Notes under the pieces: generated by a model
What the model was told of the DNA's origin: nothing
Seen by the model: the letters and a program-made list of their open reading frames with translations, nothing else
Database searches by the model: none
Position numbers and translations under genes: made by a program
Shown here: positions 48,803 through 55,756 of the stretch, one piece after another
Numbering within the stretch: the stretch's first letter is position 1
Layout of the letters: each line of letters begins with the position of its first letter
Assembly: GCA_903862955.1 (NCBI GenBank)
Contig: CAIPAH010000023.1
Span: 186,001 to 250,000, forward strand
Direction of reading: 5' to 3'
DNA length: 64,000 nucleotides
Source: an uncultured Opitutia bacterium
GTDB taxonomy: Bacteria; Verrucomicrobiota; Verrucomicrobiia; Opitutales; Opitutaceae

Positions 48803-49795
48803 TCAGAAGTGCTTCACGTAGCCGTTGCGGCGGAGGCGCTCGAGCCAGCGTTCCTGGCTGATCTGGCCCATCTGCTGGGCGAGGAGGCGCTCAATTTGGT
48901 CGCGGACGTCGTCGAGCTGCTGGATGCCGGCGTATTTGCGGTCCTGCACGTAGAGCAGGAAGACGCCTTCCGGTAGCACCACGGCTTGGGAGCACTCGTC
49001 CTTCTTCATGTTGAAGACAATGTCGGTGAATTCCTTGCGGAAATCGGAGCGCTTCACCCAGCCCCAGTCGCCGCCCTTGGCGTGGCGGGAGTCCTGGCTG
49101 AATTCCTTGGCGAGATCCTCGAACTTCACGCCGGCCTTCAGCCGCGCCAGCACGACGTCCGCCTTGGCCTGCAGGTCGGTGTCGGATTCGCCGTTGGCGT
49201 GGGTGAACTGGATGAGGCGGAGGTGCACGCTGTCTTCCTGGTAAAACCGGTCCTTGTTTTCCTTGTAGAACGTCTCGATGCGCACCGGGCTGATGACGGT
49301 CTGGGTCTTGCGCTGCTGCTGGCGCATATACTGGTAAATGATGTCCTCCTCGACCTCGCGATGGTAGTCGCGCAGCGTGATGCCGCGGCCCCGCAGGTAG
49401 GCGAGGAACTTGGAGCGATCGTTGTCGAACTGCTCGCTCTCGATCTCCGCGATGCGGTTGTCGACGAAGCTGGCGGGGATGTGCTTTTTCTCGTCCTTGC
49501 GGAATTCCTTCACGATCAGTACGCGGTCGATGAGCTGCTGGATGACGTCGTCCTGGAGGGCTTCGAGCTTCTCGTTGAACTCCTTCTCGCTGCGGGCTTC
49601 GCGCTGCAGCTGGGGGATGAGCGGGCTGATTTCACGGCGGACATCGTCCACGGTGATGACCTTGTCCTCCGCGATGGCCGCGATGCCGTTGGCAAAGCGC
49701 AGGTTCAGGCCGTCATTGGCGGCGGACTGGCCGCGGGCAGCGGCAAGGAGTCCGACAGCGAGGAGAGCGAGGGTGAGACGGCGACCGAACATCAT
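48803..49795 (-). CDS. SurA-like periplasmic chaperone/peptidyl-prolyl isomerase
   Basis: A 330-residue exported protein: signal peptide about residues 1-22, SurA N-terminal helical domain (IAAIAEDKVITVDDV ... QLIDRVLIVKEF) and one parvulin domain (VHLRLIQFTH ... FEDLAKEFSQDSRHAKGGDWGW split). SurA has two parvulin domains; here one is seen. It assists outer-membrane protein folding. The start overlaps the mfd stop by 4 bases; a second Met codon directly follows the first. Confidence 0.87.
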   Translation of the reverse strand: MMFGRRLTLALLAVGLLAAARGQSAANDGLNLRFANGIAAIAEDKVITVDDVRREISPLIPQLQREARSEKEFNEKLEALQDDVIQQLIDRVLIVKEFRKDEKKHIPASFVDNRIAEIESEQFDNDRSKFLAYLRGRGITLRDYHREVEEDIIYQYMRQQQRKTQTVISPVRIETFYKENKDRFYQEDSVHLRLIQFTHANGESDTDLQAKADVVLARLKAGVKFEDLAKEFSQDSRHAKGGDWGWVKRSDFRKEFTDIVFNMKKDECSQAVVLPEGVFLLYVQDRKYAGIQQLDDVRDQIERLLAQQMGQISQERWLERLRRNGYVKHF

Positions 49796-52700
49796 GGATT
49801 GGGCAGGTTGTTCAAAAAAGAGACGATTTCCCTTAACCGTAGAAGCGGGCGGGGGGCGGTCAACCTTGGAAACCGGGTGCCAACCTGCACCCAGTCATCG
49901 CGGCGGCCGGTATTGCGCAGGCACTTCAAGCGGCTGGACTCCGTTTCGACGGAAATGATGCCTTTTTGTTCCGCCCGAATGCGGACTTCCGTGACGAGCA
50001 GGAGCGCCTTAACCTCCTCGCCGAACTTGCCGAACCGGTCCCGCAAGTCGTTTTCGATCTGTTTCAACGCCGGCAAGGTGTCGGCGAGGGCGAGTTTGCG
50101 GTAGAAGTCGATGCGCAACCGGCTCTCTCCCAGATAGCTGGCAGGGATGCGCGCCTGGATGCGCTCCACCTCGGTGTGGCCGGCTTGATCTTCGGCATCC
50201 TTGAGGGCGGTGTAGCTGTCCTCGTGGCGGCCGCGGACGGGCCCGCCGGCCGGCGCGGGGCTTTCGCCGATAAAGACGAAGTCGAGCTTCACGCTGGCGC
50301 GGATGGCCGCGGCGGTCTTTTCGCCCTTCAACCGGGCCACCGACTGGCGGAGCAGTTGGCAGTAAAGCTCGAAGCCGACCCCGACGATGTGGCCGCTTTG
50401 CTCGGCGCCGAGGAGGTTGCCCGCGCCGCGCAGCTCGAGATCGCGCATCGCAATCCGAAAACCTGCGCCGAGCTGCGTGTGCTGCCGCATCGCGGTCAGA
50501 CGCTGGCGGGCGACGTCGAGCAGCCGGGTGTGCCGGTGGAGCAGGAGATACGCGTAGGCCTGGTGTTTGAAACGCCCGACGCGGCCACGGAGCTGGTAGA
50601 GTTGCGACAGTCCGAAACGGTCGGCGCCCTCGATGATGATCGTGTTGCAGTTCGGGATATCGAGTCCGCTCTCGATGATCGTGGTGCACACGAGCATCTG
50701 GTAGCGCCCGGCGACGAACTCGGTCATCACTTCCTCCAGCTCGTGGGCGTTCATCTGCCCGTGGCCAACGCCGATGGTGAGTTCGGGCAGGAGTTTCCGC
50801 AACTGGGCGGCGATGAGGTCGATCGTCTGCACGCGATTGTGCAGGTAAAACACCTGTCCGCCGCGGCGGATCTCGTGGTGGACGGCGTCGAGGACGACCT
50901 TTTCGTCGTAGGTTTTGACGATCGTTTGGATTGGATGGCGGTTAGTCGGCGCGGTCTCGATCACGCTGAGGTCGCGCGCTCCCGTGAGCGCCATGTAGAG
51001 CGTGCGGGGAATCGGCGTGGCGCTCATCGAGAGCACATCGACGGTGGCGCGGAGGGCCTTGAAACGCTCCTTGTGCTTCACGCCGAAGCGCTGCTCCTCG
51101 TCGATCACGACGAGGCCGAGTTCGCGGAACTGGACGTCGCGCTGCAGCAGCCGGTGCGTCCCGATGAGGATGTCCACCTGGCCCGCGGCCGTGGCCGTGA
51201 GGATCTTCTTTTGCTCCGCGGGCGTGCGAAAGCGGCTGATCATCTCGACGGCGATCGGGTAGCCCGCCATGCGCTCGCGAAACGTGTTGAGGTGCTGCTG
51301 CGCCAGCACCGTCGTGGGCACGAGCACCGCGACCTGCCGGCCGCCTTGGACGGCCTTGAACGCGGCTCGAATGGCGACCTCGGTTTTGCCAAAGCCCACG
51401 TCACCGCAGATGAGGCGGTCCATCGGGCGGGTGTGCTCCATGTCCGTCTTCGTCTCGGCGATGGCCTTGAGCTGGTCGCGGGTCTCGGTGAACGGGAACG
51501 ACGCCTCGAACTCCTTCTGCCAGGTGGTGTCGGCGGAAAACGCGTGACCGGGCTGCGCCTCGCGCGCGGCGTGGATGCGCAGCAGCTCGGCGGCGAGGTC
51601 GATGGTGGCGAGCTCGGCGGCTTTGCGCGCTTTTTCCCAGCGACCGGAGCCGATGCGGCCGAGTTGGGGCTTGGCCTTGCTCAGGCCCACATAACGGCTG
51701 ATGAGATGCGACTCCTGCAGGGGCACGTGCAGCGTCACGTGGTCGTCAAACTCGAGGGAAATCACCTCGCGCAGGCCCTGGGCGGTATCGAGCTTGGTCA
51801 GGCCGCGATAGAGCGCGATGCCGTGCTGGAGGTGGACCACGAAGTCACCCTCGACCAGTTCCGAAAAATCGAGCAGCTGGTCGATCTGCGCCCGCTGCGC
51901 CACGGCGCGCGGATTGAGCAGTGGACGTCGCTGCCGCTGGCGGCCGAAGATCTCGGTCTCGGTGACGACGACGAGGCCGGTCGAGATGTAGGGCGGGGTC
52001 TCCTGACCCCGCCTGGATAGGATCGCGGAAGTGGCGGGGTCGGGAGACCCCGCCCTACAATCGAGCGTCGCGCCCGGACGAAAGGTCACCCGGAAACCCT
52101 CGTTGAGCGTGCCGCGGAGGAAACGTGGGCGCATCGCCTTGAGCGCGGGTCGCTCGGCGAGGATCTCCTTGATGCGCTGTTCCTCGCCGTCCTTGCCCGT
52201 GACGATCACGATGTCGTAGCCGACTTTCCGCCACGCGGCGACTTGCAGGAGAAACTTCAGCCGCGCGTCCTCTTCGACCTGCAGCCGTTCCTGGGCAACC
52301 AGGGCGCCCTCGGGGTAAGTGCGGTGGTGGGCGAGGCTCTCGGTGTCCCACGTCGCCTCGTCGGACGCGCCGTCGAACAGCGCGCTGGCCTCGTCCAGAT
52401 CGCTGAGGCCGAAGGCCCCGGCGCAGCGGGCCAGCAGCGGGGCGAGCCCCGGGCTGCTCTCCTGGGCGAACGAGCTGAATTCCTCCTCGAGCGAGGCGGG
52501 CTCGACGAAGACGAGCTGGGTGCCGGTCGAAAGGTAGTCCGCGATGCCGGTGGTCGACTCCGCGAGGCGGACGCGCGGCGAGGCGGAAAGCGTGATCGTC
52601 GTGACGCTGGCCCCCGAGCGCTGGGTGACGGGATCGAATTCGCGGATCTCCTCAATTTCATCGCCGAAGAAATCGAGCCGATAGGGCTGGTTGGCCGTGA

Positions 52701-53235
52701 CCGGGTAAACGTCAATGATGCCACCGCGAATGGCGTAGTGGCCGGGCGCCTCGCACACGGCCTCCGAGTCGTAGTCGAGCTGCTGCAGTTGCTCGAGCAG
52801 ACCTTGGAACGACTGCTTCTGCCCGCGGGCGAGGGTAAATTCGCGCGCGGAGAATTCCTCGAGGGCGGGCACGGGCTGAAGCAACGCCGCAGGCGTGGTG
52901 GTGACGACGAGCGTGTCGGGCGCGGTGGCCAGCGCGCGCGTAGCGCGGAGCCGGGAGAGCACGGTCACCCGCTCGCTCGAAGCCGCGAACGCCTCGCGCA
53001 TGTCGCGGCTGTCGCGCATCGATTCCGGGAAAACGAGGGCGGCTAAGGGCCGCATTCCGCCGGCGGCGGCGCAAAAGAACGCGATGTCCTCCGCCAGCTG
53101 TTCGGCGGTCTTCAGGTCCTCGGCGACGACCAGCCAGACCGGCGCGGGCTGTCGGCGCACCAGCTCAGCGATCACCGCGCCCCGGGCGGGCGGGCAGATG
53201 CCGGTGAGCTTGTGACGCGGAGAATCGGCAGGCAT
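49792..53235 (-). CDS. mfd: Transcription-repair coupling factor
   Basis: A 1147-residue protein with all Mfd modules: UvrB-like N-terminus (about 1-330), RNA-polymerase-interaction domain (VEGDFVVHLQHGIALYRG), superfamily 2 helicase core with GDVGFGKTEVA, VVIDEEQRFG, SATPIPRTL and QLRGRVGR, and the C-terminal TRCF domain. It removes stalled RNA polymerase and recruits UvrA. Residues about 393-417 are encoded by a 73-bp palindromic element read in frame; the flanking family sequence is intact on both sides. It is downstream of rnc and overlaps the SurA-like gene by 4 bases. Confidence 0.96.
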   Translation of the reverse strand: MPADSPRHKLTGICPPARGAVIAELVRRQPAPVWLVVAEDLKTAEQLAEDIAFFCAAAGGMRPLAALVFPESMRDSRDMREAFAASSERVTVLSRLRATRALATAPDTLVVTTTPAALLQPVPALEEFSAREFTLARGQKQSFQGLLEQLQQLDYDSEAVCEAPGHYAIRGGIIDVYPVTANQPYRLDFFGDEIEEIREFDPVTQRSGASVTTITLSASPRVRLAESTTGIADYLSTGTQLVFVEPASLEEEFSSFAQESSPGLAPLLARCAGAFGLSDLDEASALFDGASDEATWDTESLAHHRTYPEGALVAQERLQVEEDARLKFLLQVAAWRKVGYDIVIVTGKDGEEQRIKEILAERPALKAMRPRFLRGTLNEGFRVTFRPGATLDCRAGSPDPATSAILSRRGQETPPYISTGLVVVTETEIFGRQRQRRPLLNPRAVAQRAQIDQLLDFSELVEGDFVVHLQHGIALYRGLTKLDTAQGLREVISLEFDDHVTLHVPLQESHLISRYVGLSKAKPQLGRIGSGRWEKARKAAELATIDLAAELLRIHAAREAQPGHAFSADTTWQKEFEASFPFTETRDQLKAIAETKTDMEHTRPMDRLICGDVGFGKTEVAIRAAFKAVQGGRQVAVLVPTTVLAQQHLNTFRERMAGYPIAVEMISRFRTPAEQKKILTATAAGQVDILIGTHRLLQRDVQFRELGLVVIDEEQRFGVKHKERFKALRATVDVLSMSATPIPRTLYMALTGARDLSVIETAPTNRHPIQTIVKTYDEKVVLDAVHHEIRRGGQVFYLHNRVQTIDLIAAQLRKLLPELTIGVGHGQMNAHELEEVMTEFVAGRYQMLVCTTIIESGLDIPNCNTIIIEGADRFGLSQLYQLRGRVGRFKHQAYAYLLLHRHTRLLDVARQRLTAMRQHTQLGAGFRIAMRDLELRGAGNLLGAEQSGHIVGVGFELYCQLLRQSVARLKGEKTAAAIRASVKLDFVFIGESPAPAGGPVRGRHEDSYTALKDAEDQAGHTEVERIQARIPASYLGESRLRIDFYRKLALADTLPALKQIENDLRDRFGKFGEEVKALLLVTEVRIRAEQKGIISVETESSRLKCLRNTGRRDDWVQVGTRFPRLTAPRPLLRLREIVSFLNNLPNP
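51987..52059. repeat. 73-bp palindromic element inside mfd
   Basis: Two 27-base arms (51987-52013 and 52033-52059) are inverted repeats at 26 of 27 positions with a 19-base loop. The element is inside the mfd reading frame and adds about 24 residues, including RAGSPDPATS, without breaking the frame. Confidence 0.85.
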
Positions 53236-55697: not shown

Positions 55698-55756
55698 GTA
55701 GGTCGGGGTTTATCCCCGATATGAAACGCAGATATCGGGCGTAAAGCCCGACCTAC
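55698..55756. repeat. 59-bp palindromic element between parA and the ABC-2 permeases
   Basis: 25-base arms (55698-55722, 55732-55756) are inverted repeats at 22 of 25 positions with a 9-base loop. It starts GTAGGTCGGG, much like the GTAGGGCGGG start of the palindrome in mfd. Confidence 0.75.

Follow-up and report, generated by a model that had tools for sequence, protein, structure and literature searches.

The closest described counterparts of the element that we analyze here are GTAG-tagged REPs lying inside genes, which were reported in 2013, in the largest number from Opitutus terrae, and many of which occupy repair genes (PMC3733652). In the sections of that paper drawn on here, over half of the intragenic inserts are dimers or groups, encoding 20–30 residues, and both uvrA genes of O. 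terrae carry double insertions; loops and linkers are suggested as neutral insertion sites, and a mutator role is raised as speculation. The same sections equate the intragenic CGTC repeats of Rickettsia conorii with RPE-4 and RPE-6, and list CGTC repeats without a transposase association. REPs otherwise seldom overlap coding regions, according to the part of PMC12306157 cited here. RAYTs with their flanking REPs were defined in 2010 (PMC2817692), and REPINs in 2011 (PMC3116915).

The locus described here, a palindromic element inside the mfd gene of an uncultured Opitutaceae bacterium, shares features with each of these systems. Like the intragenic GTAG REPs of PMC3733652, it is an in-frame palindromic dimer in a repair gene that encodes 20–30 residues, and its host belongs to the same phylum; the sections of that paper drawn on here give insertion at the same site for Xanthomonas recB and at different sites for other genes of the same category, whereas here sites are common to several mfd and to several uvrA genes. 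Like REPINs, it is an inverted REP doublet able to form a hairpin, although the REPINs of PMC3116915 were studied extragenically in the part relied on here, whereas the copy in mfd is translated, and searches of its genome turned up no close cognate RAYT. With the REP–RAYT units of PMC2817692 the family shares a GT(A/G)G head, a GC-rich palindrome with a 2–4-nt middle and inverted REPs flanking RAYT genes; that paper, in its relevant passage, describes RAYT homologues as absent outside the lineages descending after the gammaproteobacterial branch, whereas the present host is a member of the Opitutaceae. Finally, like the Rickettsia palindromic elements (RPE-1, -4 and -6), it is a palindrome translated in frame inside a protein, but RPE-4 and RPE-6 are CGTC-tagged with no known transposase, as given in PMC3733652, and the arms in mfd start with GTAG. 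In-frame GTAG REPs in repair genes are thus already published, as the cited sections of PMC3733652 make plain, and what looks new is the repeated insertion of different REPs into the same loops of Mfd. The main text of that paper does not name mfd (an O. terrae mfd entry may still stand in its Additional file 3), and among the literature matches listed there was no earlier report of REPs in mfd, PMC13289151, on cyanobacterial termination, being a match that contains the words.

The features of the locus are given below by their positions in the window, that is, the whole stretch of 64,000 nucleotides that was analyzed.

49792..53235, minus strand: mfd (transcription-repair coupling factor), 1147 aa, no stop in frame
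51987..52059, minus strand: REPIN/BIME-like REP doublet, in frame within mfd; 73 bp when the T/A beside each GTAG/CTAC is counted, residues about 393–417
51987..52013, plus strand: REP copy 1, GTAG head and palindrome GGCGGGGTC-TCCT-GACCCCGCC
52014..52032, no strand: spacer between the REP arms, 19 nt
52033..52059, minus strand: REP copy 2, inverted, GTAG head and palindrome GGCGGGGTC-TCCC-GACCCCGCC

The original prediction of a near-perfect 27-bp inverted repeat translated in frame within mfd, as residues about 393–417, was borne out: the two 27-nt arms are complementary at 26/27 positions across a spacing of 19 nt, all 1147 codons are open, and the repeat occupies gene nucleotides 1176–1249, which places it at residues 393–417 and contributes about 24 amino acids to the loop. 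Each arm is itself a hairpin, in which GGCGGGGTC and GACCCCGCC enclose a 4-nt loop behind the GTAG, so that the GT(A/G)G head and GC-rich palindrome by which a REP is recognized are present in both. The inverted-repeat score of the element is 24, and a score of at least 16 was reached by 0/220 codon-shuffled mfd genes. The element is a pair of GTAG-tagged REPs in inverted orientation, that is, a REPIN/BIME unit. The element is bordered by a 5-nt direct repeat, CTCGA, at a distance of one base from each end; this may be chance, and no clear target duplication was seen.

The host protein has the Pfam domains UvrB_inter (134–217), RID (461–516), DEAD (585–746), Helicase_C (785–889) and TRCF (1026–1105). 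The insertion had been placed between the UvrB-like region and the RNA-polymerase-interaction domain, at a linker; it does precede the latter domain, but in the AlphaFold model it sits in a loop between predicted strands at 381–384 and 420–425 rather than in a bare linker. In the E. coli Mfd chain 6x26_A, the residue equivalent by sequence to 420 is 440. That the site might tolerate insertions agrees with the length of this loop, 19–59 aa across 107 aligned Mfd proteins (3/110 were omitted for stops in the cut-out), and the host loop is, judged from these alignments, hypervariable. The model gives pLDDT values below 50 at residues 395–416 and of at least 80 in 29 of the 39 blocks of ten that make up residues 1–390, but it is only fair overall (mean pLDDT 63.5, pTM 0.45), and the low values at 395–416 are weak evidence because 381 of the 1147 residues also fall below 50. 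With that qualification, the inserted peptide probably lies in a disordered surface loop. Values of dN/dS for mfd of 0.08–0.12 against the four nearest relatives (0.03–0.14 for other pairs) fit a gene under purifying selection, and the insert is predicted most likely to be near-neutral for Mfd function.

Relatives supply the state of the gene that lacks the insert. A search of 57 genomes returned an mfd match in all of them, albeit only weak helicase-type matches in G041, G042, G048 and G050; the best 30 loci were kept and joined by 80 further ones, giving 110 mfd loci and 96 distinct genes, mostly from Opitutaceae (Verrucomicrobiota). The peptide RAGSPDP occurs in the present mfd and in 0/109 of the other loci, as expected had the residues come with the palindrome. 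The segment from NEG to VVV spans 47 residues here and 27 in the four nearest relatives (L010–L013), a net gain of 60 nt. Because the element measures 73 nt, about 13 nt of host loop were lost or the ancestral loop was shorter, so that the clean empty site foreseen in relatives holds in that the insert is absent from them but not to the base, the host loop being about 13 nt shorter than in L010–L013. The synonymous distance of this mfd to its nearest relatives is 0.63–0.70, whereas the arms differ at 1/27 sites. This near-identity suggests that the insertion may be recent, provided that the arms started alike and have stayed free of homogenization.

The repeat had also been expected elsewhere in the genome, and it is dispersed there. 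The 13-mer GTAGGGCGGGGTC has 20 exact copies, against 1 for a reversed-pattern control; the 20 are spread over 14 sites, and inverted doublets account for 6 of these. When up to 1 mismatch was allowed, 36 matches stood against 31 for the control; these counts do not separate signal from chance, and we therefore counted exact copies only. In a genome search with the whole element, matches elsewhere spanned parts of one arm with its edge, and none ran across the entire spacer from arm to arm. Judged by stop-free frames and third-position GC, 13/14 sites lie outside any convincing gene, the exception being the copy in mfd, which is flanked by GC3 values of 0.88 and 0.84. Five sites (L041, L050, L055, L057 and L060) have borderline spanning frames with lower or one-sided GC3 and no Pfam domain across the element; the only domain in these frames, in L041, starts 50 residues past it. 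Among 60 sites of GTAGGGCGGGGTC-type REPs in genomes G009 and G010, moderate GC3 on both sides was seen only at L089 and L085, with no Pfam family at either. The window also contains, at 55698–55756, another GTAG-tagged doublet of a different family (GTAGGTCGGG...), in a gap adjoining a ParA-like gene.

A transposase partner for this REP family is found in relatives. In G010, which belongs to the same genus, a 190-aa RAYT-like ORF (L143) has an mfd-type REP on both sides; it scores 106 bits on the NCBIfam model REP_Tyr_transpos, above the curated cut-off of 80, and its sole PDB match at E 0.001 is TnpArep 4er8. When L143 was searched against 120 genomes of the family, the seven strongest matches (L200–L206; E 1e-57 or better, 55–64% identity) were all genes adjoined by GTAGGGCGGG(G/A)TC REPs, so that with L143 a REP lies beside the RAYT gene, on at least one side, in 8 relatives. 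At least 9 exact REP copies were present in 7/7 genomes of L200–L206 as against 14/113 others (Fisher p 2e-6, both cuts being post hoc). The 23 weaker RAYT loci that were scanned (L207–L229) comprise 15 with other GTAG or GTGG hairpins and 8 with none detected. The position of the E-value cut matters, because four loci below it (L207, L208, L209 and L211) are still 55–57% identical to L143, yet have other REPs or none detected.

No close RAYT of the L143 type was found in the genome that carries the mfd element by searches with the PF01797 profile and the L143 protein. The profile picked out two genes; two RAYT-like genes score 56 and 74 bits on REP_Tyr_transpos, under its 80-bit cut-off. The L143 protein gave two matches, of which the one listed, a third RAYT-like gene, at C24, is 35% identical to L143 and has no mfd-type REP near it. 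On the strength of these gene neighborhoods the REP family is RAYT-linked, with no close RAYT found in this genome for the mfd copy. Also counting against the link, G009 and G026 hold 84 and 86 exact REP copies, and their best matches to L143 are only 35% and 45% identical. In G005, a RAYT gene (L141) has a GTGGGCGGGGTGCCCTCACCCCGC hairpin on both sides, whose translation resembles, by eye, the Mfd loop of L243 (WAGCPHPAG).

Doublets of this kind recur in mfd. When the genes were scanned for inverted repeats bearing GT(A/G)G at their outer ends, a criterion that 0/220 shuffled genes passed, 6 in-frame doublets were found in 5/96 distinct mfd genes, confined to two loops: the one near residues 393–417 in this genome, L253 and L302, and a second near residue 255 in L298, L302 and L308. 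The REP sequences of these doublets differ between genes. In this genome the GTAG is translated as xGT-AGG, and the phase of all six doublets, xGT-AGG or xGT-GGG, keeps TAG from being read as a stop. L302 carries two in-frame doublets of differing sequence, at residues 255–274 and 401–421. The mfd gene of L286 also passed the tagged-repeat threshold but was dropped as chance, its 129 nt being conserved and lacking the structure of a REP. A different dispersed repeat, GTAGGGCGAATCC..., is present as a partly decayed copy in the main mfd loop of G005 and G009, and nt 317–417 of the L278 mfd form an in-frame inverted repeat of GAGCT-like units with no GTAG tag. The 410 kb of sequence flanking the mfd genes contained 9 tagged repeats, and wherever a frame spanned one of them, its GC3 fell short of 0.72 on one side or both.

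A similar picture was obtained for uvrA, in which 7/90 genes carry in-frame doublets at two sites, near residues 238 and 426–453 (residues are counted from the beginning of the stop-free stretch, in the frame that contains the SGSGKS motif, and the set is 90/92 rows of the main type). The uvrA genes of G034 (L400) and G014 (L403) have two in-frame doublets each, at the same two sites. Among control genes, valS had an in-frame doublet in 1/90 genes, the query being a stop-free stretch extending past the gene start on its upstream side and the set covering 90/110 genomes, of which two came from split rows; among the 20 absent genomes most gave partial or split matches, in which insertions could go unnoticed. 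Two of three valS matches were dropped because they lay outside the gene; the valS gene of G065 (L508) holds an in-frame GTAGCGCAGGCATCC doublet. In rpoC, doublets numbered 0/80 by length (3975–3990 nt) and 0/30 by scan.

These counts bear on the idea that NER genes are not chance hosts, but that doublets enter certain loops of Mfd and UvrA again and again, or are favored there by selection, and perhaps tune repair, as a mutator or through damage-coupled insertion. Taken together, mfd and uvrA have in-frame doublets in 12/186 genes and valS and rpoC in 1/170 (p 0.003, post hoc and on rows related by descent), and PMC3733652 speculates along similar lines about REP-tagged repair genes in the sections drawn on here. 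Against this, single comparisons gave p 0.21 for mfd versus valS, 0.06 for uvrA versus valS and 0.06 for mfd versus rpoC; the tests are post hoc on rows linked by descent, 20/110 genomes fall out of the valS set, the control genes may have fewer tolerant loops, and tolerance of surface loops accounts for an identical pattern. We regard such a special role of NER genes as unlikely, and hold as similarly doubtful the stronger form in which Mfd and UvrA of Opitutaceae are preferred hosts of REP doublets, insertion being coupled there to repair or transcription, or selected for an effect on repair.

Other readings of the mfd element itself fare less well. The likeness to a Rickettsia palindromic element that was originally proposed holds in effect, since the element is inserted in frame in a protein and is absent from orthologues, but not in kind, because it is a GTAG-tagged REP with RAYT neighbors in relatives; membership of that protein-invading family, whose RPE-4 and RPE-6 are tagged CGTC and whose hosts belong to a different phylum, was rejected on the tag and is highly improbable. 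As RNA, the stretch with the mfd element folds at −73.3 kcal/mol for 113 nt (z −7.1; 0/200 shuffles equal), and a hairpin this stable might be a selected regulatory element of the mfd mRNA, acting through attenuation or ribosome pausing; we give this little credence, however, given that such a hairpin is expected of any REP doublet and that the element is present in 0/109 other loci. Because the assembly is a draft of 31 contigs, in which repeats can be misplaced, an assembly error could in principle have put a REP copy into mfd, but about 78 kb separate the site from the nearer end of its 316-kb contig, the reading frame is intact, and insertions of this class occur in that loop in other genomes, so that an artifact is scarcely credible. 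We consider it very probable, instead, that a REPIN-type REP doublet of the GTAG superfamily, non-autonomous and RAYT-linked, entered mfd in the lineage leading to this genome.

For this insertion of a REP doublet, a plausible course of events can be outlined. A RAYT, which is a Y1/HUH transposase, would have acted on a single-stranded GTAG hairpin and placed the doublet in mfd. Insertions with TAG read as a stop, or with the wrong net length, would have been lost, whereas this one would have survived because its GTAG is read as xGT-AGG, its net change is +60 nt and its peptide falls in a tolerant loop that is probably disordered and surface-exposed. Most likely, then, the doublet in mfd was mobilized by a RAYT at some time and is tolerated in a variable loop.

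The locus offers a clear example of a mobile palindrome that has become part of a protein, here a core enzyme of repair, and insert-free relatives are at hand. The recurrence of such doublets in mfd and uvrA also provides a natural set of filled and empty proteins for directly testing the idea, raised as speculation in 2013, that inserted REPs affect repair and the rate of mutation. Most worth following, in our view, is the reuse of the same sites in Mfd and UvrA by different REPs.
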